Below are positions 1,893 to 29,596 of a DNA stretch of 29,596 nucleotides, one piece after another. The stretch covers positions 1-29,596 of IMG/VR virus record IMGVR_UViG_3300025141_000517, one strand, 5' to 3'. Below the pieces are notes generated by a model, which saw only the letters and a list, made by a program, of their open reading frames with translations, was not told the DNA's origin and searched no databases. How positions within the stretch are numbered: the stretch's first letter is position 1; every line of letters starts with the position of its first letter. The stretch is from a virus. A program made the position numbers and the translations under genes.

Positions 1893-3468
1893 TCTTAAAA
1901 ACATAAATACCGATATTTGGTATTACGATGAAAAGTCAGCTAATAGGGCTGTGGATTTTATCGAGATGTTTTGTCAGCACGTAAAGGGAGATTTAGCTGG
2001 TCAAAGGTTTATCCTTGAGGATTGGCAAAAGGATGACATCATTAAACCTCTTTTTGGTTGGAAGTCAAAGAAAACTAATTTAAGAAAGTTTAGACAATGT
2101 TTCGTTTTTATCCCTCGTAAGAACGGAAAGACTAATTTGATGGTAGGTGTGGCTCTCTATATGCTTTTCTCTGATGGAGAGAAAGGAGCTGAGATTGTTT
2201 CGGCAGCAGCAGATAAAGAACAAGCCCGATTAAGTTTCAGTATAGCCAAGCAAATGGTACTACAAGAACCTGAACTTATCAAACGAGGGAACACTTATCG
2301 TGACTCAATCACTTACGATAAAAATGGTTCGTACTACAAAGTTATTTCGGCTGATGCTGACACTAAGCACGGTCTAAACCTCTCTTGTTGTTTGTTGGAT
2401 GAAATTCACTCTCACAAGAATCGTGACCTCTACGATGTGTTACTCACGAGTATGGGAGCTAGGAAAGAACCGCTGATGCTCGGGATTACGACAGCTGGGG
2501 CTGGTCATCAAAAAGACCACATTTGTAAAGAACTTTACGATTATGCTAAACGACTTATTGATGGTAGTATCGAAGATGATTCATTCTTAGGCGTTGTTTA
2601 CGAGGCTGATAAAGATGATGATATTTTCGATGAAGAGGTTTGGAGGAAAGCGAATCCAGGCTATGGTACTATCATCACCGAAGAGTATATGAAGCAACAA
2701 GCAGTAAAGGCAAAAAACGAGCCTTCATACGAAAACACCTTCCGTAGACTCCACCTTAATCAATGGGTGGCCAACGAATCTAGGTGGATTAGTGACGAAA
2801 AGTGGATGGAGTGTGATGGTCTAGTGAATGAGCGATATTTAAAAGGGAAAACTTGTTACGCTGGATTAGATTTAGCTTCAACTAGAGATGTTACTTCACT
2901 TTCATTAATGTTCCCTGATGAAGATGGTGGTTACGATATTATTTCATATAACTTTATACCTGAAGAGAACGCTCACAAACGCTCAGAGCGAGATAAGGTA
3001 AATTATTCAAAGTGGGCTAGAGAGGGTCACGTTATCCTAACTCCTGGCGATGTTTGTGATTACAATTACATTAAGCAAAAGATTAGAGATTTAAGCGAGA
3101 TATACGATATTCAAATGATAGCTTACGATAGGTGGAACGCTTCACAGATTGTAATCGACCTTACAGAAGAAGGTTGTCCGATGATTCCCGTAGGACAAGG
3201 TTACAAGACTATGAGTCCAGCTACAAAAGAATTTGAATCACTTATACTTAGCGGTAAATTAAGACACGGAGGTAATCCCGTACTCAGGTGGATGATGTCT
3301 AATATCGTGCTAACTTATGATGCTGCTGGAAATATTAAGCCCGATAAATCTAAATCGAATGAAAAGATTGATGGTGTAATTTCGTGTATAATGGGATTAA
3401 GCGAGGCTATGCAAAACAAGAATGGTGGAAACTCAGGTTATGACTCAAAAGAAATATTCTTTATCTAA
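1885..3468 (+). CDS. terL: Terminase large subunit
   Basis: This is the packaging motor ATPase and nuclease, acting at the portal vertex. The 527 residues contain a Walker A-like PRKNGKT at 77-83, hydrophobic Walker B plus catalytic Glu in CCLLDEIH (about 168-175), and nuclease-domain aspartates in GLDLAS (D329), AYDRWNAS (D415) and EKIDGV (D496). These are the landmarks of the Terminase_1 (HK97/P27-linked) family, and the length is normal for it. It overlaps the TerS gene by 8 nt, and its end overlaps the sigma-like gene by 47 nt, so the three are tightly coupled in translation. Confidence 0.96.
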   Translation: MNNLKNINTDIWYYDEKSANRAVDFIEMFCQHVKGDLAGQRFILEDWQKDDIIKPLFGWKSKKTNLRKFRQCFVFIPRKNGKTNLMVGVALYMLFSDGEKGAEIVSAAADKEQARLSFSIAKQMVLQEPELIKRGNTYRDSITYDKNGSYYKVISADADTKHGLNLSCCLLDEIHSHKNRDLYDVLLTSMGARKEPLMLGITTAGAGHQKDHICKELYDYAKRLIDGSIEDDSFLGVVYEADKDDDIFDEEVWRKANPGYGTIITEEYMKQQAVKAKNEPSYENTFRRLHLNQWVANESRWISDEKWMECDGLVNERYLKGKTCYAGLDLASTRDVTSLSLMFPDEDGGYDIISYNFIPEENAHKRSERDKVNYSKWAREGHVILTPGDVCDYNYIKQKIRDLSEIYDIQMIAYDRWNASQIVIDLTEEGCPMIPVGQGYKTMSPATKEFESLILSGKLRHGGNPVLRWMMSNIVLTYDAAGNIKPDKSKSNEKIDGVISCIMGLSEAMQNKNGGNSGYDSKEIFFI

Positions 3469-3931
3469 GAACGAAATAATAGTCCAAGAACAAGGCACGA
3501 TAAGAGATATTTGTGCTAGTGTTCTAGCTAATAATAAAGATTTACATCTTATTGATGATTTAATTCAAGATGTTTCTCTTATTCTCCTATCTCAAATGGA
3601 GGAAACTATACAATCTTTATACGAAACAAATCAATTATGTTATTTCGTGGCTCGTATCGTCACGAATCAAGTTTTAAGTACTACGAGTCCATTTCATAAT
3701 ACTTATCGCCTTAGAGAGCCTAAAACACCGTTTATTTCGGATGATTACGATAAACTTCCTGATGAATTATGGGATAACTTGCTTAAAATAGATGACAACA
3801 TACCATATCTCAGATTTGAATATGGATTAAAAATACAAGAAATAGCAACAATTAATGGTGTTAGCACTCGTTATGTGTACAAGAAATTAGCTAAATATTT
3901 AAAAAATATTAAAAAAAGTGTTGAAAAGTAG
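3422..3931 (+). CDS. Sigma-70-like transcription factor
   Basis: 169 residues. An N-terminal segment (DDLIQDVSLILL, about 45-56, then YFVARIVTNQVLSTTSPFH) resembles sigma region 2, where an acidic DLxQDVxLxLL helix begins the core-binding part. The C-terminal 35 residues (GLKIQEIATINGVSTRYVYKKLAKYL) read as a region 4-like helix-turn-helix. Short proteins of this kind between terminase and portal are familiar to me from Bacteroidota phages. The start at 3422 lies inside terL; a second ATG at 3440 is possible. A role as a late-gene activator is inferred from the fold and from the single late promoter upstream. The gene is more A+T rich than its neighbours. Confidence 0.7.
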   Translation: MVETQVMTQKKYSLSKNEIIVQEQGTIRDICASVLANNKDLHLIDDLIQDVSLILLSQMEETIQSLYETNQLCYFVARIVTNQVLSTTSPFHNTYRLREPKTPFISDDYDKLPDELWDNLLKIDDNIPYLRFEYGLKIQEIATINGVSTRYVYKKLAKYLKNIKKSVEK

Positions 3932-19621: not shown

Positions 19622-19924
19622 ATGCCAAGATTACCTAAACCAAGAAGAACTACACCTAAGAATGAATCTTGGGGTGGTGATACTTCGTTTTATCGTAAAG
19701 CACCTTGGCGAAAGATGCGTGCTTATATTTTGTCATTAAATCCATTATGCGTACATTGTGAGAAGAAGGGCGAAACTACTCCAGCAGATGTAGTAGACCA
19801 TATTAAGCCAATAAAAATGGGTGGGGCTAAGTTAAAAGAATCTAACTTACAAGGGCTTTGCCACAAATGTCACAATAGAAAAACATATTATGAAAATAAC
19901 CCCAACGCTAAGGTTCAGGAGTAA
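19622..19924 (+). CDS. HNH endonuclease
   Basis: 100 residues. CVHC (43-46) and CHKC (80-83) form the zinc-ribbon cysteines. VVDHIKPI carries the first His (H60), ESNLQGLC the Asn (N75) and CHNRKT the last His (H84), the full H-N-H order. The basic N-terminus (MPRLPKPRRTTPK) fits DNA binding. HNH proteins assist terminase cleavage in HK97-like phages, though here the gene lies at the far end of the late operon rather than beside TerL. Its 3' end overlaps the resolvase gene by 35 nt. Confidence 0.9.
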   Translation: MPRLPKPRRTTPKNESWGGDTSFYRKAPWRKMRAYILSLNPLCVHCEKKGETTPADVVDHIKPIKMGGAKLKESNLQGLCHKCHNRKTYYENNPNAKVQE

Positions 19925-20288
19925 CTATGAAAAAGTTGTATGTGAAGAACTTGACAAACAAGACATACCTTTTGAGTACGAAACTATTAACTTATACTAC
20001 GAAGTTTCCGAGCAACGTAAATATACTCCTGATGTTATTTTACCGAATGGTATTATCTTGGAATTAAAGGGTCGATTCACATCTAACGATAGGAAGAAGA
20101 TGTTACTTGTTATATCTCAGCACCCTACTTTAGATATTAGAATGGTTTTTCAGAGGCACACAAACAAGTTATTTAAAGGAAGTAAAACGACCTACTCTGA
20201 ATGGTGTGAGAAACATAACATTAAGTGGGCAGATAAAACAATACCTATAGAATGGATAAAGGAGAAGATAAAACACCCGAAGAAATAG
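19890..20288 (+). CDS. T7 endonuclease I-like Holliday junction resolvase
   Basis: 132 residues with the PD-(D/E)XK pattern of T7 gp3: an acidic residue in the first helix (SNYEKVVCEEL, E19 or E20), PDVILPN (D48), ELKGRF (E58, K60), then a helix rich in basic residues and KGSKTTYSEWCEKHNIKWADK. The spacing closely follows the E-D-E-K set of the T7 enzyme. It would resolve branched DNA before packaging. The start at 19890 lies inside the HNH gene. Its own end overlaps a 30-residue frame by 37 nt. Confidence 0.9.
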   Translation: MKITPTLRFRSNYEKVVCEELDKQDIPFEYETINLYYEVSEQRKYTPDVILPNGIILELKGRFTSNDRKKMLLVISQHPTLDIRMVFQRHTNKLFKGSKTTYSEWCEKHNIKWADKTIPIEWIKEKIKHPKK

Positions 20289-22276: not shown

Positions 22277-22924
22277 TTAAATATTTTTAGGATATGGCTT
22301 TAATTCGTATTTAAGCTTACTTAATAACTCTTTTTTTCTTCTTCTATTTGCGTTTATAAATAAATATCTATGTTTTCTAGGTCTATCAACAGATTTAAAT
22401 TTATCACCATACTTAGCTTTTAATTCCTTAGAGGTGTATTTATCAGCAATAGTTTGACAATGCTTATCTACGCCCTCAATAACCCAATTAGTTCTTTTAG
22501 CACTTAATCCTGTATATAACCAGTTAGTGGCTTGGTAAACCACACCTAAATGACCTTGTTGAATTTCAGCGTAACTTACAATTATCTCCTTACTAACTAA
22601 CTTTAAAGTATTACCTATAAGGTAGCTCTCTGTATTTTTAGGAGTATCATCTTCAATCCACAACCTATTTAACTCAATTACATTAAAAGACTCTTCAATT
22701 CCGCATATACCTTTTCTTAAACTACTACTACTAGGAGTCCCATATATAACACAACCTACTATTCTTTCTTTACTAAATAAATCTGAATTAATTTCAGTTT
22801 TTTCAAAAAGACCAAACGCTTGAGAGCAGGGACATTTCCTGTGTAGGTAGTGATTATTTACAACTAAATCCATAGCATCCTTATAGCTTATAGGTTTTAT
22901 AGTGTATTTATCTTTTAAACCCAT
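22277..22924 (-). CDS. Mom-family DNA modification protein
   Basis: 215 residues. Landmarks are VVNNHYLHRKCP near 21-32, IVGCVIYGTPSS, the block VIELNRLWIEDDTPKNTESY (82-101), IVSYAE (115-120) and GHLGVVYQATNW (124-135). These match the GNAT-like Mom family, whose Mu member converts adenine in DNA to a carbamoylmethyl form that blocks restriction enzymes. A basic tail (RRRKKELLSKLKYELK) fits DNA binding. Its neighbour at 21732 is a second GNAT-fold protein. No separate com-type translational activator was recognised. Confidence 0.85.
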   Translation of the reverse strand: MGLKDKYTIKPISYKDAMDLVVNNHYLHRKCPCSQAFGLFEKTEINSDLFSKERIVGCVIYGTPSSSSLRKGICGIEESFNVIELNRLWIEDDTPKNTESYLIGNTLKLVSKEIIVSYAEIQQGHLGVVYQATNWLYTGLSAKRTNWVIEGVDKHCQTIADKYTSKELKAKYGDKFKSVDRPRKHRYLFINANRRRKKELLSKLKYELKPYPKNI

Positions 22925-24568: not shown

Positions 24569-24931
24569 TTAGAATGGTAAATCGCTTGCTTTATGGAATC
24601 CATCATCAGGTTTATCTGAAGTTGTTTCCGCTTTCTTTTCACCACCACTTGTAAAAATCTTCCAAGCTTGAAGGTCGGTATAGTACTTCCCATTATACTC
24701 TCTTGATTCTACATTAAAGCTAACATCAACGTCTTGACCGACCTTGTTAAACTTTAATAGGTTGTCTACCTTTTCTTCTCCGAATACGGTGAAGTAAACA
24801 CTCTTAGGGTACTCCCCTTTAGTTTCTACTACAAATCCACACTTCTTCCAAGTGTTACCTGTACTCTTTGCTGTTCCAGTTTGTACATCACTAATTACCG
24901 TGATAGTACCATTTAATTCTAAGTTACTCAT
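24569..24931 (-). CDS. ssb: Single-stranded DNA-binding protein (DUF3127-like)
   Basis: 120 residues. GTITVISDVQTGTAKSTGNTW begins an OB-fold region; KKCGFVVETKGEYPKSVYFTV, DVSFNVESREYNGKYYTDLQAW are the DUF3127 landmarks (split over strands). The C-terminus DDGFHKASDLPF mimics the acidic DxPF tail of bacterial SSBs that recruits repair and replication partners. It lies after an unknown 79-residue gene and before an internal terminator, which would let it be made in excess over the genes downstream. Confidence 0.87.
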   Translation of the reverse strand: MSNLELNGTITVISDVQTGTAKSTGNTWKKCGFVVETKGEYPKSVYFTVFGEEKVDNLLKFNKVGQDVDVSFNVESREYNGKYYTDLQAWKIFTSGGEKKAETTSDKPDDGFHKASDLPF

Positions 24932-25167: not shown

Positions 25168-25588
25168 AAGCCTGATTGATTTTAATTAGTTCGTAAATTA
25201 AGTCAATTTGTTTTGCTGGAATCATCTCTGAGCAAATGATGTTACTAATATTAGAACGTAAAGCTTCGCTCTTATCTATTTTCTCAGAGCCTAATATAAT
25301 TCTATTCATAGCAGCAAAATCTACATCTACATCCGCCATATTCATAAATGTTTTCTTAGAGTGTAGCACGTTAGAGTGGTCGCAATTAGTTAAACCACCT
25401 ATCTGAGCTAAGGTTAATTCCTTGTCTAAAGATAACATATATCGTATAGAGTGTTTAGCGTTCATTCTCTCTCGCTTTCTATTCTTATCGAAAACAGTAT
25501 CTTGGTCTACTCCCCAAAAATCACAACAAATCTTCTTAGCGTTGTCTAACTTCTTCTTGGCAAAAAAACTTCTAGTAACTTGTCTCAT
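25154..25588 (-). CDS. Stand-alone DnaA domain IV-like DNA-binding protein
   Basis: 144 residues without an ATPase domain. Residues about 44-80 (AKHSIRYMLSLDKELTLAQIGG, then TNCDHSNVLHSKK) follow the DnaA C-terminal helix-turn-helix: the RxxxMYLxR helix, LTxxxIGxxxG and the box-reading DHSTVLHAxxK, here CDHSNVLHSKK at 69-79. DnaA uses this segment to bind DnaA boxes. The rest of the protein is helical and unassigned. A DnaA-like box reader without ATPase could mark the phage origin or compete with host DnaA. No clear TTATCCACA boxes were found in the window. Confidence 0.75.
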   Translation of the reverse strand: MRQVTRSFFAKKKLDNAKKICCDFWGVDQDTVFDKNRKRERMNAKHSIRYMLSLDKELTLAQIGGLTNCDHSNVLHSKKTFMNMADVDVDFAAMNRIILGSEKIDKSEALRSNISNIICSEMIPAKQIDLIYELIKINQAYENR

Positions 25589-26361
25589 AATTCTTCGTGT
25601 ATTACGTGATTATTAGCTTCAATAGCCGACTCACAATATTTCTTTTTATTTTCTAATAATTCAATATACTCTTGTCTACCTTGGTCGATGAAATTCTCTG
25701 AACATCGGAAGATACCTATCTGATGCGGTGCGTTAGATTCTATTACAATAAACACAAACTCTTTCGCATTAAACCCATCAAGATAAAACGCTGCTTGGCG
25801 ATGATAAGCGTACCTGTAAGCACTCTTCTTAAAATCTACTACATCTTTACCAGTAGTTTTAATATCGACTAGCATATCGCCTCCATCAATAACTATATCC
25901 GCTTTACCTTTACACTTACTCATTGTGTTAAAGTCTATCCAAGTCTTAGGAACTTCCGTTTCGCAATTATCTAGTATCGCTTTAACTTCAGGACAATCGT
26001 TTAACTTTCTCTTTAACTTTAAAGCTAACTCGTATTGCTCCATTGTCATAAGGTACTTTCTACCTTCTTTACAATCTAAGTCTAATCGCTTCTTCCACTC
26101 CTTATTCATCTTGGATGTCATTCCTTTTTCCTTTTCAGGTCTATCTTCAGGATTAAACACCACAAAGTTTTCAGAATACTTCTCAGGCTCTAATATCAAA
26201 GTGTGGACTAAAGCACCAAACCTTAAAGCTGGACCATCTATCTTCCCTCCGTTACGCATCTTCCAATAGTATGAAGGAGAACGCTTAACGTACCCTAACT
26301 GAGAATTGGTCGTGTACTCCCAATCTCCGTAGTAGTCGCTGTCATTGTTAAAATTCTTCAT
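25585..26361 (-). CDS. RecE-like PD-(D/E)XK exonuclease
   Basis: 258 residues. The N-terminal SPSYYWKM and ALRFGALVHTLILEPE (GxxxH, about 46-60) match the RecE/exonuclease VIII family, where His and nearby residues begin the active site. The core is KGKADIVIDGGDMLVDIKTT (D155, D166-x-K168), followed by YAYHRQAAFYLDGF with the Q-x-x-x-Y motif. It would resect double-stranded ends for recombination together with SSB; no single-strand annealing protein is recognisable in the window, but the 162-residue gene upstream is in the place where one is often found. Its TGA stop overlaps the next ATG. Confidence 0.86.
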   Translation of the reverse strand: MKNFNNDSDYYGDWEYTTNSQLGYVKRSPSYYWKMRNGGKIDGPALRFGALVHTLILEPEKYSENFVVFNPEDRPEKEKGMTSKMNKEWKKRLDLDCKEGRKYLMTMEQYELALKLKRKLNDCPEVKAILDNCETEVPKTWIDFNTMSKCKGKADIVIDGGDMLVDIKTTGKDVVDFKKSAYRYAYHRQAAFYLDGFNAKEFVFIVIESNAPHQIGIFRCSENFIDQGRQEYIELLENKKKYCESAIEANNHVIHEEL

Positions 26362-26518
26362 CTTTTCCTATGTCTTTTAAATCTATTTGAGCGATTGATT
26401 TTAAAGCCCAACCAAATCCTTTTAAAACTAATGCTAGTATGTGAAACCAATAAACAAACCATATAAAGTTAGGCGTGTTAGCATTAGATAATATCCAATA
26501 TAAGATAATCTCTATCAT
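26348..26518 (-). CDS. 56-residue membrane protein within the recombination operon
   Basis: ATG at 26518 overlaps the TGA stop of the upstream gene (ATGA), and the frame runs to TAA at 26348, overlapping the exonuclease start by 14 nt. The product has two hydrophobic stretches (IIEI-like LYWILS near the start and FIWFVYWFHILALVLKGFGW at about 18-37) and a charged tail (QIDLKDIGKDEEF). The coupled ends at both sides argue that it is a real gene. Function unknown; possibly membrane-anchored, single span. Confidence 0.68.
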   Translation of the reverse strand: MIEIILYWILSNANTPNFIWFVYWFHILALVLKGFGWALKSIAQIDLKDIGKDEEF

Positions 26519-27003
26519 CCCTTAGCTTCTTTAAGTGCGTTCATAATAGCCATCTCCTGAGTGTTATTCATAGTGTACTTAGATACAGCTAATTCAACCT
26601 TCCCTACTTGACCTTGCTTAATAGCATCTAGCATAGCAGTTTCAACTTCCTTAGTCATCTTACTTTGGCTAGGCTTTTTATCTCTAATGCGGAGAGCATC
26701 GACTGTTTCACCAAAGGCTTTAACACCCTTCTCCACATATAAGGTAACTCTAACTCCTACCCAATCCTCTACTAATCCACTACCAGCAACCTTCTCGATT
26801 GCCTTAGCGTTAGTTCGATTGAGTATCATCGGCTTATCCATCTCGTTGTAGTACACAACAAAACAATCTTCCTTTCTTCCGTTCTGACCAGTTACCTTAG
26901 CCGAACCTACTCCTTTAATACTAACTACTACCTCTCGCTTTCCATCTAAGGAGTACGACCCTAGGTAATCGTAGTTAAACTGTTTCTTCCAATGTCCGTT
27001 CAT
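26515..27003 (-). CDS. Phage protein of the recombination region, beta-rich
   Basis: 162 residues. The pattern LGSYSLDGKREVVVSIKGVG, CFVVYYNEMDKPMILNRTNAK, GLVEDWVGVRVTLYVEKGVKA and FGETVDALRIRDKKP occurs in many phage genomes next to exonuclease and SSB genes, usually without an assigned function. The C-terminal 50 residues are helical. The context suggests a role in DNA recombination or replication. The leader ATTAAAACAAGTAAAGATTA before ATG is A-rich with no Shine-Dalgarno site. A 100-nt gap upstream has no visible promoter. Confidence 0.7.
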   Translation of the reverse strand: MNGHWKKQFNYDYLGSYSLDGKREVVVSIKGVGSAKVTGQNGRKEDCFVVYYNEMDKPMILNRTNAKAIEKVAGSGLVEDWVGVRVTLYVEKGVKAFGETVDALRIRDKKPSQSKMTKEVETAMLDAIKQGQVGKVELAVSKYTMNNTQEMAIMNALKEAKG

Positions 27004-27433: not shown

Positions 27434-27678
27434 GAACTAATTTGATTTTATTTAATTCGGATTGATTTATATAGCCCTAGATTTTTAAATATTTTAAGTA
27501 ATCCTTAAAAAAAGTACTAGCCACTCTCGATAAAAAAACCAAAAAAAACGTATATAGAAAAGTGTATATTTATTCAATAGGGGAGGGGTTTGAGTATGTC
27601 ATATTGACAATTCCTAATTTATTTTATACTTTTTTATTTTTATTTTCAAATTATTTTATTAGTCTGTGAGTGTGTTTG
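27434..27678. other. Divergent intergenic region, A+T rich
   Basis: Left part of the 457-nt gap between the leftward early operon and the rightward small-gene cluster. It holds A/T-rich DNA with runs such as GATAAAAAAACC and AAAAAAAACG, a GGGGAGGGG stretch near 27582, and a T-rich block (about 27619-27660) that should melt easily. No gene is visible. With the promoters and the repeat to its right it is the best place in the window for a replication origin, though no iterons or DnaA boxes are evident. Confidence 0.4.
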
Positions 27679-27719
27679 TACGCGTGTGCGCGTGTGCGCG
27701 TGTGCGCGTGTGTGTGTGT
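27679..27719. repeat. 41-nt alternating purine/pyrimidine (Z-DNA-prone) tract
   Basis: From 27679 every base alternates pyrimidine and purine: TACGCGTGTGCG, then an 8-bp unit (CGTGTGCG) repeated, ending in a run of TG. It is G+C rich in one of the most A+T-rich parts of the window. Such sequence readily adopts the Z form under negative supercoiling. It lies between the two divergent promoters. Confidence 0.8.
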
Positions 27720-27753
27720 TTGTATTACCTAGTATCAAATAAAACTTATTTAC

Positions 27754-27770
27754 ATTTGTTAAAAACAAAT
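27754..27770. promoter_or_regulatory. Operator-like palindrome over the rightward promoter
   Basis: ATTTGTT-AAA-AACAAAT is a perfect 7-bp dyad with a 3-nt centre and covers the -33 TTTG at 27755-27758. A related, imperfect dyad overlaps the -33 side of the promoter at 1098-1128. A repressor or activator site is inferred; no regulator gene is recognised. Confidence 0.55.
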
Positions 27771-27786
27771 AAATAATATATATTTA
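27755..27786 (+). promoter_or_regulatory. Probable rightward promoter for the small-gene cluster
   Basis: TTTG (27755-27758), 20 nt, TATATTTA (27779-27786), one base off TAnnTTTG. The leader to the ATG at 27837 is about 43 nt and ends with AACCTAAATACTTGATT. Weaker match than the other promoters. Confidence 0.55.
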
Positions 27787-27836
27787 CACCAGTGAAAACG
27801 GCAATATAGCTACAAAATAAACCTAAATACTTGATT

Positions 27837-28022
27837 ATGAGCAATTTAACTACACAGACTACCGAAAATTTACCAAATATTAATCATTGGATAAATTTGA
27901 AATCTCATCTATTCAAAGCTTTAATGAATGGTAGCAATAAAAATAAAGTGAATGAAAATTGGAAATACCCTTTAATCAAATCTATTGCTTTAGATGTGTA
28001 TTTTAATATTAAAAAAAACTAA
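27837..28022 (+). CDS. Hypothetical 61-residue protein
   Basis: MSNLTTQTTENLPNINHWIN, Asn/Lys/Thr-rich, with a C-terminal KSIALDVYFNIKKN. A TTG two codons upstream is in frame, but ATG at 27837 is preferred because it follows the AACCTAAA leader. No motif. First gene of the right-end cluster; its last codons fall in the direct repeat 28012-28052. Function unknown. Confidence 0.52.
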   Translation: MSNLTTQTTENLPNINHWINLKSHLFKALMNGSNKNKVNENWKYPLIKSIALDVYFNIKKN

Positions 28023-28052
28023 TTAACCAGAACCAAAAAAAACAAGTTATGA
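28012..28052 (+). repeat. Junction repeat 1, left copy
   Basis: 41 nt, 39 of them identical to 28231-28271. It covers the last codons and stop of the gene at 27837, the spacer ACTAATTAACCAGAACC with an A-rich run, and the start codon ATGA of the gene at 28049. With its partner it exactly brackets that one gene (period 219 nt). Confidence 0.85.
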
Positions 28053-28231
28053 GTTATACAAAGTATTTTAATCTAAAAACAAACTACGGAATTGAAACTG
28101 TGGACCATTTAGAGAGAAAAAATTTTAATTCTTATAAGGATTTTAAAAAAGAGCTTGTAAGATTAAAAAAAGAATATATTCTAGCTGGAATAGCTGTTTA
28201 TATTTCTCAAAAACCTTGCAAAGATTACTAA
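28049..28231 (+). CDS. Hypothetical 60-residue protein, cassette gene
   Basis: MSYTKYFNLKTNYGIETVDH, basic (many Lys) with a helix KDFKKELVRLKKEYILAG and a terminal KPCKDY. No family recognised. It is bounded on both sides by the same 41-nt repeat, so a recombination between the copies would remove it cleanly and join the preceding gene to the next leader. Function unknown. Confidence 0.58.
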   Translation: MSYTKYFNLKTNYGIETVDHLERKNFNSYKDFKKELVRLKKEYILAGIAVYISQKPCKDY

Positions 28232-28271
28232 AAAAAACTAATTAACCAGAACCTAAAAAAAAAAGTTATGA
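28231..28271 (+). repeat. Junction repeat 1, right copy
   Basis: Matches 28012-28052 except for two bases (T for A after AACC, and A for C in the A-run). The spacing between AACC and GTTATGA is the same, 11 nt, in both copies. It supplies the leader and ATG of the gene at 28268. Confidence 0.85.
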
Positions 28272-28582
28272 AAACAAGTAAAACAGTAAAACAAGCCTTT
28301 GAGCTTACTAACCTTAGGCAAATTAAAGTGACTTATCACGGAGCAACAAATTCAAGAGGGTCTAGGGTTTGCATCTCAGAACCAACAAGAGCAAACAACG
28401 AACCAACACAAAAGAAATATTTTAGCTATTCTTATAAGTATGGCGATATTATGGAACAAGCTTTTCAGACTTTGCGCTCAAACGGTTGGAATATTATTTG
28501 CCGTGCTTCAGATATAAAAGGCTATATATTCCTTTGTGATAATTGGGCAAGTGAATATTTAGAAATTAAGAACCTAAAATAA
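28268..28582 (+). CDS. Hypothetical 104-residue protein
   Basis: MKTSKTVKQAFELTNLRQIK, then VTYHGATNSRGSRVCISEP and YSYKYGDIMEQAFQTLRSNGW, RASDIKGYIFLCDNW. A small alpha/beta protein with a resemblance by pattern to antirestriction- or RHH-type accessory phage proteins that is too weak to name. Better codon balance than its neighbours. Its 3' end (EIKNLK) lies in junction repeat 2. Function unknown. Confidence 0.6.
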   Translation: MKTSKTVKQAFELTNLRQIKVTYHGATNSRGSRVCISEPTRANNEPTQKKYFSYSYKYGDIMEQAFQTLRSNGWNIICRASDIKGYIFLCDNWASEYLEIKNLK

Positions 28583-28596
28583 TAAAGCTATGTATA
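28560..28596 (+). repeat. Junction repeat 2, left copy
   Basis: Covers the C-terminal codons (EIKNLK) and stop of the gene at 28268, AACCTAAAATAA, and AGCTATGTATA at the next start. It matches 28759-28796 with three substitutions, one further mismatch in the A-run and one single-base indel. The pair brackets only the gene at 28590. Confidence 0.78.
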
Positions 28597-28781
28597 CTAT
28601 AAAAGTTCAATACGACCACCAAAAATACAGACCTCATACTTATAAAGAGTTAATAAGACAAAAGGAATGGAGGCTTATTATTAAAGCTATTTCTGTTGAT
28701 GAAGCTAAAAGGATTCTAAAAGAAGAACACAATTTGAATCCATTCTATTTTAAATTCATAGAAATAATTAACCTAAAATAA
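28590..28781 (+). CDS. Hypothetical 63-residue protein, cassette gene
   Basis: MYTIKVQYDHQKYRPHTYKE is basic and Tyr-rich, followed by a helix VDEAKRILKEEHNLNP and a C-terminal EIINLK. The end resembles that of the preceding gene product (EIKNLK), because both lie in the same repeat. No motif. Bracketed by junction repeat 2. Function unknown. Confidence 0.55.
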   Translation: MYTIKVQYDHQKYRPHTYKELIRQKEWRLIIKAISVDEAKRILKEEHNLNPFYFKFIEIINLK

Positions 28782-28796
28782 AAAAAGCTATGTATA
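28759..28796 (+). repeat. Junction repeat 2, right copy
   Basis: Covers the C-terminal codons (EIINLK) and stop of the gene at 28590, the AACCTAAAATAA leader with one extra A, and the ATGTATA start of the next gene, which also begins MY. Pairs with 28560-28596. Confidence 0.78.
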
Positions 28797-29122
28797 AAAT
28801 AACACAGAAAGAAACCTATAAAACCTGGCTAGGGTTTACCAAAATTAAAACAAAGATATATACCTTTGAAAATTACGCCGATGCGCTAAGATTTGCCCTA
28901 AATGAGCAAATTAGGTATTTTAGTCATTGTATTAATGGTGTGCATTGTTCAACCCGTGACGCATATAAACAATTTCACACCGTGAAAAACTGGGTAAAGT
29001 TAGCCGCTAAGAATCCTTTGCATTATATCGGACTTAGTAGTTCAAAAGGCGTGAATCTTGAAAGGTTGTATTTTTATTACCTGAATAGCGAGAATTTACA
29101 CCGATTAAAAAAATATATATAA
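28790..29122 (+). CDS. Hypothetical 110-residue protein
   Basis: MYKITQKETYKTWLGFTKIK, then YTFENYADALRFALNEQIRYF, a Cys/His-rich CINGVHCSTRDAYKQFH and VKLAAKNPLHYIGLSSSKG. The His/Cys cluster (about 47-61) could bind metal, but the spacing matches no family I know. Alpha/beta, basic. The stop lies in junction repeat 3. Function unknown. Confidence 0.58.
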   Translation: MYKITQKETYKTWLGFTKIKTKIYTFENYADALRFALNEQIRYFSHCINGVHCSTRDAYKQFHTVKNWVKLAAKNPLHYIGLSSSKGVNLERLYFYYLNSENLHRLKKYI

Positions 29123-29136
29123 ACCGCTTAAATTTA
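29120..29136 (+). repeat. Junction repeat 3, left copy
   Basis: TAAACCGCTTAAATTTA, starting at the stop codon of the gene at 28790; 16 of 17 bases match 29266-29282. With its partner it brackets the 41-codon gene at 29143. Confidence 0.75.
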
Positions 29137-29142
29137 GAACTT

Positions 29143-29268
29143 ATGACTATCAAAGATATTTATTCGCAATTAGATTATTTGTACAATATGCAGCTTAAAA
29201 GATGCAATCCGATTGTACAAAAGAGAATTAGTAATGAAATAGACAAACTTATTAAGATGCTAATTTAA
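29143..29268 (+). CDS. Hypothetical 41-residue protein, cassette gene
   Basis: MTIKDIYSQLDYLYNMQLKR and on to NEIDKLIKMLI: a short, entirely helical protein, perhaps a two-helix hairpin. It lies in line with the cluster, starts 20 nt after the previous stop and is bracketed by junction repeat 3. Last gene before the tandem terminators. Function unknown. Confidence 0.55.
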   Translation: MTIKDIYSQLDYLYNMQLKRCNPIVQKRISNEIDKLIKMLI

Positions 29269-29282
29269 ACAGCTTAAATTTA
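29266..29282 (+). repeat. Junction repeat 3, right copy
   Basis: TAAACAGCTTAAATTTA, beginning at the stop codon of the gene at 29143. Here it leads into a terminator instead of another gene. Confidence 0.75.
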
Positions 29283-29290
29283 TATCAAAG

Positions 29291-29319
29291 CTCTTACATT
29301 AATTTGTAAGAGTTTTTTT
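29291..29319 (+). terminator. Strong terminator after the right-end cluster
   Basis: CTCTTACA pairs perfectly with TGTAAGAG around a 6-nt loop (TTAATT) and is followed by seven T (29313-29319). Classical rho-independent form. Confidence 0.88.
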
Positions 29320-29372: not shown

Positions 29373-29401
29373 GCCTTATATATTAATAACTTATATAAGG
29401 C
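29373..29401. repeat. Perfect 10-bp inverted repeat
   Basis: GCCTTATATA (29373-29382) and TATATAAGGC (29392-29401) flank a 9-nt loop, followed by TTTCT. A weak third terminator or a protein-binding dyad. Confidence 0.6.
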
Positions 29402-29596
29402 TTTCTAATACCATTAAATTAGTGTTGGTATATTAGAGTATACTTAATGTATTAATGTAGCTTAAAACTATCTTATAACGCCTTAAATTGTATTGTGTTG
29501 TATTGTATTGTAATTGCATAGCTTAACACTAATAAAATAAAGGCAAGTATAAGCCTATAGGGGTCTATTTATCACTACCGATAAAATGCCAGAAAC
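29402..29596. other. Non-coding right end with hairpins and TTGTA repeats
   Basis: No gene is visible on either strand. The region contains another imperfect dyad (TAATACCA ... TGGTATATTA, about 29408-29436), five 5-bp repeats at 29488-29512, and a lone GGGGTCTA near 29559 that matches the core of the 11-bp array at 1257. It may be a continuation of the control region if the molecule is circular. Confidence 0.4.
29488..29512. repeat. Five tandem TTGTA units
   Basis: TTGTA, TTGTG, TTGTA, TTGTA, TTGTA end to end. Five-base microsatellite in non-coding DNA; its role is unknown and copy number may vary. Confidence 0.65.

Follow-up and report, generated by a model that had tools for sequence, protein, structure and literature searches.

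Integron cassettes are units of one gene each, separated by repeats, and they vary in content and order. In T4-type phages, promoter early stem-loops (PeSLs; Arbiol 2010, Comeau 2014), as described in PMC4503421, are repeats of regulatory DNA at gene borders that are tied to the shuffling of small early genes in close relatives. Lambdoid mosaic phages undergo homologous recombination at short conserved sequences between modules (PMC3029335), and phage recombinases are relaxed, with a minimal pairing length of 23-27 bp for Red-beta (PMC3945230). In cluster K mycobacteriophages, the SAS element, GGGATAGGAGCCC, lies directly upstream of the starts of different gene families, and the ESAS is a SAS plus 17-bp inverted repeats (PMC3203893). 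Whether phages swap single genes by illegitimate recombination or by homology at boundary sequences has been debated, and the array of small genes described here belongs to a family of phages that provides, for the homology model, a construct to test and a compact set of natural data.

The window and its array operon

The window is a whole IMG/VR virus record of 29,596 bases. It encodes a small and a large terminase, portal, head protease, major head protein and tape measure protein, and the structural genes are followed by a leftward replication operon with an exonuclease-VIII-like nuclease, a DUF3127 SSB, a DnaB-like helicase and a Mom-like protein. The virus is a marine siphophage, probably with a Bacteroidota host, the host assignment following from the promoter type, the A-rich starts and DUF3127. 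A megablast search of annotated phages returned no match, and distant comparison gave just a trivial 37-nt match. A 162-aa OB-fold protein encoded next to the array was found in no bacterial or archaeal genome and thus provides no link to a prophage or host.

The array is a rightward operon that runs from promoter to terminator (about 27750-29318) with one -7 element at its head, which can be aligned in relatives L007 and L009. In relative L054 the array stands directly upstream of the terminase genes, which places it between replication and packaging on the genome map. All six array ORFs have their best codon-usage score in their own frame; the start of the first is ambiguous between 27837 (ATG) and 27831 (TTG). 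We use seam for the unit that separates neighboring genes, taken to run from the stop codon of one gene through an A-rich translation-start region to the ATG of the next. In map order, the features are as follows.

27751-27758, + strand, putative Bacteroidota-type -7 promoter element TACATTTG at the array head (TAHHTTTG consensus match only)
27837-28022, + strand, array gene 1, 61 aa, ORFan; an unrelated 48-aa gene is there in L007
28007-28052, + strand, R1 copy a, stop-spacer-start seam between genes 1 and 2; 43/46 identical to copy b
28049-28231, + strand, array gene 2, 60 aa, ORFan, flanked by the R1 copies; missing in L007
28226-28271, + strand, R1 copy b, seam between genes 2 and 3
28268-28582, + strand, array gene 3, 104 aa, family F6
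28560-28602, + strand, R2 copy a, seam between genes 3 and 4
28590-28781, + strand, array gene 4, 63 aa, ORFan, bracketed by R2
28759-28802, + strand, R2 copy b, seam before the anchor gene
28790-29122, + strand, anchor gene, 110 aa, family F0; in 25/28 arrays
29117-29136, + strand, R3 copy a, after the anchor stop
29143-29268, + strand, array gene 6, 41 aa, family F3; L013 has an empty slot here
29263-29282, + strand, R3 copy b, directly ahead of the terminator; L013 has kept this copy alone
29287-29318, + strand, strong intrinsic terminator that closes the array operon (-15.6 kcal/mol, z -7.9)

The original prediction, that three direct repeats each enclose one small gene, proved correct. 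When junction pairs were scored by gapped local alignment against 200 dinucleotide shuffles of the array, R1 scored 41 and R2 29, above the shuffle maximum of 22; R3 is weaker, a 16/17 match occurring in 3/2000 random 41-nt pairs from the same array. The copies also span a gene end and spacer as described, with the start codon included in R1 and R2 and not in R3. Copy a of R1 runs from the final codons of 27837-28022 through the stop and spacer to the ATG at 28049, and copy b from the final codon of 28049-28231, again through stop and spacer, to the ATG at 28268. The R2 copies, about 43 nt and offset by one indel, extend from the gene end through the spacer and ATG to about four codons of the next gene, and the R3 copies are 18/20 identical with a core of 16/17. 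We rejected the seams as promoters or stem-loops because no TAHHTTTG match was found inside R1, R2 or R3 and RNA folding gave 0 kcal/mol for all three; R1 and R2 were likewise unstructured as ssDNA on both strands.

No array protein had a PADLOC hit, and the sole significant match in Pfam scans was GP88, for family F1. Genes 28049 and 28590 have no relatives in IMG/VR. The AlphaFold model of the anchor (pLDDT 91) has a beta-beta-alpha-beta-beta arrangement plus helices, and this predicted fold has no match in the PDB.

Several features near the array, or elsewhere on the genome, are recorded as observations in their own right. An alternating TG/CG tract, GTGTGCGCGTGTGCGCG, lies at 27665-27722, just upstream of the array promoter, and is possibly a Z-DNA-type or fragile site; L009 and L012 have similar tracts of other length where homology turns patchy. 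Past the terminator, noncoding DNA at 29380-29530 is largely conserved in L007 and L009 despite adjoining the variable array, and it ends with TATTGTGTTGTATTGTATTGT repeats. The protein encoded at 3422-3931, between terminase and portal, weakly resembles an RNA polymerase sigma factor (phrog_1740, E=4e-8). The replication operon encodes a Mom-like DNA modification protein at 22277-22924 (Pfam Mom E=4e-41), near the position of which relatives carry other genes (R12, R14, R25 and others); this position is a second variable slot within an otherwise conserved operon.

Turnover of array genes among relatives

Relatives were fetched with the neighboring 162-aa protein, giving 42 contigs, and 28 genomes, window included, had usable array sequence. 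These relatives are metagenomic contigs, partly related to each other, and their genes were called mechanically (ATG, at least 30 aa). The 28 arrays contain 146 genes that fall into 29 families and 36 singletons, and the anchor family F0 is the only near-universal one; the next, the GP88 family F1, has 13 occurrences. The replication operon of the same genomes keeps its order and is up to 99% identical. Across 4.7 kb of replication genes, L010, L011 and L012 have identities of 98.7-99.0%, but they have 14-77% of array genes in common, the lowest value being that of L010 and L012 (98.7% replication identity, 14% shared); L020 and L021, at 99.3% replication identity, share 55%. On these comparisons, the array is hypervariable beside a conserved replication operon, and its turnover is fast. 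In many of the contigs L007-L042, the sequence breaks off in the array or close to it, some hundreds to some thousands of bases beyond the 162-aa gene, and these ends may reflect assembly breaks caused by population-level variation.

Variation is organized in slots around the anchor. The interval between F1 and F0 is empty in L024, L025, L037, L043 and L046, and elsewhere holds F3 (L010, L011, L013), F23 (L019, L031), a singleton (L009, L033) or three genes (L054). The anchor is followed by F3, F15, F17, F9, F2, F11, F4, F21 or, in L013, by nothing. Families also change sides: F3 follows the anchor in the window and L007 and precedes it, as a longer homologue, in L010, L011 and L013, and F9 precedes the anchor in L012 and follows it in L011 and L032. 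The slot bracketed by R2 is occupied by the 63-aa gene in the window, by one of 46 aa in L007 and by yet another in L015. Homologues of gene 28268 occur in L007 and L015 and also in L003 and L004, which are phages of a different type with their own arrays of tiny genes upstream of terminase (L003 4139-6200, L004 4700-6530). The L003 and L004 arrays differ in genes, and in L003 a junction, AACAACTAAAATAATAATATTATG, is present twice, flanking one 119-aa gene.

Relatives had been expected to show gene gains and losses with breakpoints inside the repeats, and the alignments agree: the six genes are not always kept in order, and in 13 close pairs, not all independent, 39 of the 50 homology-block edges inside arrays fell in junctions (from 15 nt ahead of the stop to 15 nt beyond the ATG), where 9.6 would be expected. 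Comparison of the window with L007, about 92% identical in the replication region, illustrates the pattern. Homology stops in the leader and returns at 28233, in R1 copy b; it continues through gene 28268, is lost at 28596 in R2 copy a, and is back at 28757, at R2 copy b. With L009, homology returns at 28768, again in R2 copy b. L007 has one R1 copy, lacks gene 28049 and carries an unrelated gene in the R2 slot; the alignment fails over 27837 as well, so that 27837 and 28049 may have been replaced together in one event in L007. L020 and L021 differ in the last gene: the replaced segment begins at the ATG, homology being lost after the first 4 nt of the gene, and extends 10 nt beyond the stop codon.

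The proposal that recombination between repeat copies removes a single gene fared unevenly. L013 is an empty form of the third slot, with the anchor stop, one R3-like sequence and the terminator; the exact R1 x R1 deletion product, in which 27837 would be joined to 28268, was not seen among the relatives. Nor did the relatives include a trio of donor, recipient and product.

Shared seam DNA and the proposed mechanism of exchange

Seam DNA is common to different gene neighborhoods. R1 lies between different left and right gene sets in the window (twice), L007, L009 and L013, so that the same junction is found with different genes, as had been predicted; the R1 pattern, searched elsewhere, matched only contigs of L007 and L009. 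Between unrelated genes, L010 and L012 have an isolated island of 36 nt in common (97% identity), which includes codons for a shared C-terminus, YFNSKN, plus the stop. In L023, the first ~12 codons of the anchor also form the start of the gene that precedes it. Nonhomologous array junctions are more similar within a genome than between genomes (11.97 versus 11.16, p=0.0005), and the same test in the replication operon gave a small effect (7.92 versus 7.81, p=0.013). Moreover, junctions that bracket one gene resemble each other more than they resemble other junctions of the same genome (13.0 versus 11.3, p=0.0006), also when the window is removed (12.6 versus 11.2, p=0.0056; thinned set, p=0.006). 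In the other genomes, the effect lies mostly in the 20 nt that precede the ATG (p=0.0095); the distal part of the seam (-45 to -16) has no significant bracketing effect without the window (p=0.33), which makes R1 an extreme and exceptionally long example of a general pattern that is otherwise shorter. The DNA shared by most seams amounts to no more than 10-25 nt, and the two-copy form of R3 is specific to the window. Taken together, the alignments establish gene-by-gene turnover, with edges in seams and seam DNA common to different neighborhoods.

The alternative that best withstands these data is illegitimate recombination followed by selection, in which breaks occur anywhere, only products whose genes and starts are intact survive, and seams are alike owing to a common A-rich Bacteroidota start signal. 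Edges at gene ends are expected under that process too, and PMC3029335 takes illegitimate recombination as the likelier origin of most mosaic boundaries, since boundary sequences are seldom found there. Flavobacterium starts favor A at -3, -6 and -12/-13 (PMC6847099), so some likeness of seams is expected; the seam similarity of the relatives is concentrated at -20 to -1, and translation signals could contribute to their bracketing similarity. A start signal accounts poorly, however, for the extent of R1, which reaches -42 and whose first 16 nt are protein-coding in copy a and mostly noncoding in copy b, or for C-terminal codons in the island between unrelated genes of L010 and L012. The seams are also genome-specific, and the replication operon, with the same translation needs, showed no significant bracketing effect (p=0.09). 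We accordingly regard this explanation as a serious but rather unlikely one.

It is much harder to credit that a gene and its seam were duplicated in tandem and that the coding part then diverged quickly while function held the seam. Such an event would likewise leave two like seams around one gene, L023 has a pair of F4 paralogues whose seams resemble each other, and the products of 28590 and 28790 each start with MY-I. Clustering by blastp nevertheless puts 28049 and 28590 in no family with their neighbors, within a sensitivity that leaves room for distant homology, and divergence in place cannot yield unrelated genes in one slot of close phages or families that change slot. Mobility by a recombinase or homing endonuclease that recognizes each gene or seam is highly improbable, since, an HNH endonuclease at 19622-19924 notwithstanding, the scanned window proteins (not every ORF, on a contig that is maybe incomplete) include no integrase, transposase, site-specific recombinase or reverse transcriptase, and the seams are unstructured, differ between lineages and have no common core site.

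We favor, as probable though well short of certain, recombination at seams: the locus is a single operon of small accessory genes that behaves like a cassette array, and its exchanges are most likely guided by the seams. Comparison of the relatives shows genes around the anchor at 28790-29122 being gained, lost, swapped and moved between slots, the edges of exchange falling in seams. Since the seams of one genome or lineage have DNA in common by descent, general recombination between them is the most likely guide, with seam homology directing the exchange. The window encodes candidate proteins for such a process.

19890-20288, + strand, endonuclease (phrog_945 E=3e-47) with a weaker Holliday-junction-resolvase match (phrog_9019 E=6e-9)
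24569-24931, - strand, DUF3127 single-strand DNA-binding protein
25585-26361, - strand, exonuclease VIII/RecE-like nuclease (phrog_412 E=2.7e-47; Pfam DUF3799), candidate recombination enzyme
26515-27003, - strand, OB-fold protein of 162 aa (AlphaFold model; best fold match PrgE, E=1.5e-3)

One route would be single-strand annealing after resection by the phage exonuclease-VIII-like nuclease, together with SSBs; the other would use host RecA. From its modeled fold, the 162-aa protein probably binds ssDNA. We considered it as a Rad52/RecT-like annealing recombinase and rejected this assignment, given its OB fold and its nearest match to the SSB-like PrgE; no canonical annealing recombinase was recognized. 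The longest exact run shared by the R1 copies, 25 nt, is within the minimal pairing range of Red-beta (PMC3945230), and most other seams are shorter. Every product of exchange between seams would keep the promoter, reading frame, translation start and terminator.

The original prediction went further, describing a cassette array built for gene turnover without an integrase. Turnover and the lack of an integrase among the scanned proteins both stand; that the array is built for this purpose is unsupported. In a stronger version of the seam model, the seams would constitute a shared exchange format, integrase-free and integron-like, in which a stop-plus-start sequence is homogenized per lineage so that any gene can be docked, swapped or moved. 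We consider this format improbable on present evidence, and it is just as doubtful that seams are kept because they permit docking, swapping and change of slot in one step by general recombination. The slots mark places of fast-changing accessory genes, perhaps for counter-defense, and under seam-guided exchange the virus could change such genes quickly without a dedicated insertion enzyme.

Comparison with described systems

The array resembles integron cassettes in having single-gene units between repeats, with variable content and order, and departs from them in that no integrase was found among the scanned proteins, no folded attC-like site is present, and each seam has a translation start. 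As with SAS and ESAS, the repeated sequence lies immediately 5' of start codons; unlike those elements, the seams have nothing like GGGATAGGAGCCC and no inverted repeats, being A-rich and unstructured and including the upstream stop. With lambdoid boundary sequences the array has in common a short conserved border with unrelated DNA beyond (R1 in four phages, the L010/L012 island, L013), whereas its seams occur at many gene borders within a single operon, flank individual small genes and differ between lineages. According to PMC3029335, a boundary sequence is seldom found at a mosaic border; in this operon many borders have one. The T4 PeSLs, which with the lambdoid boundary sequences are the closest known kinds, are like the seams in that repeated DNA stands at the borders of genes exchanged among close relatives, as at the junction edges counted above; the PeSLs combine a promoter and a stem-loop, and the seams have neither, consisting of a stop and a translation start inside one operon. 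The array thus falls outside the definitions of PeSL, SAS and integron, yet it works like T4 PeSL and lambdoid shuffling.
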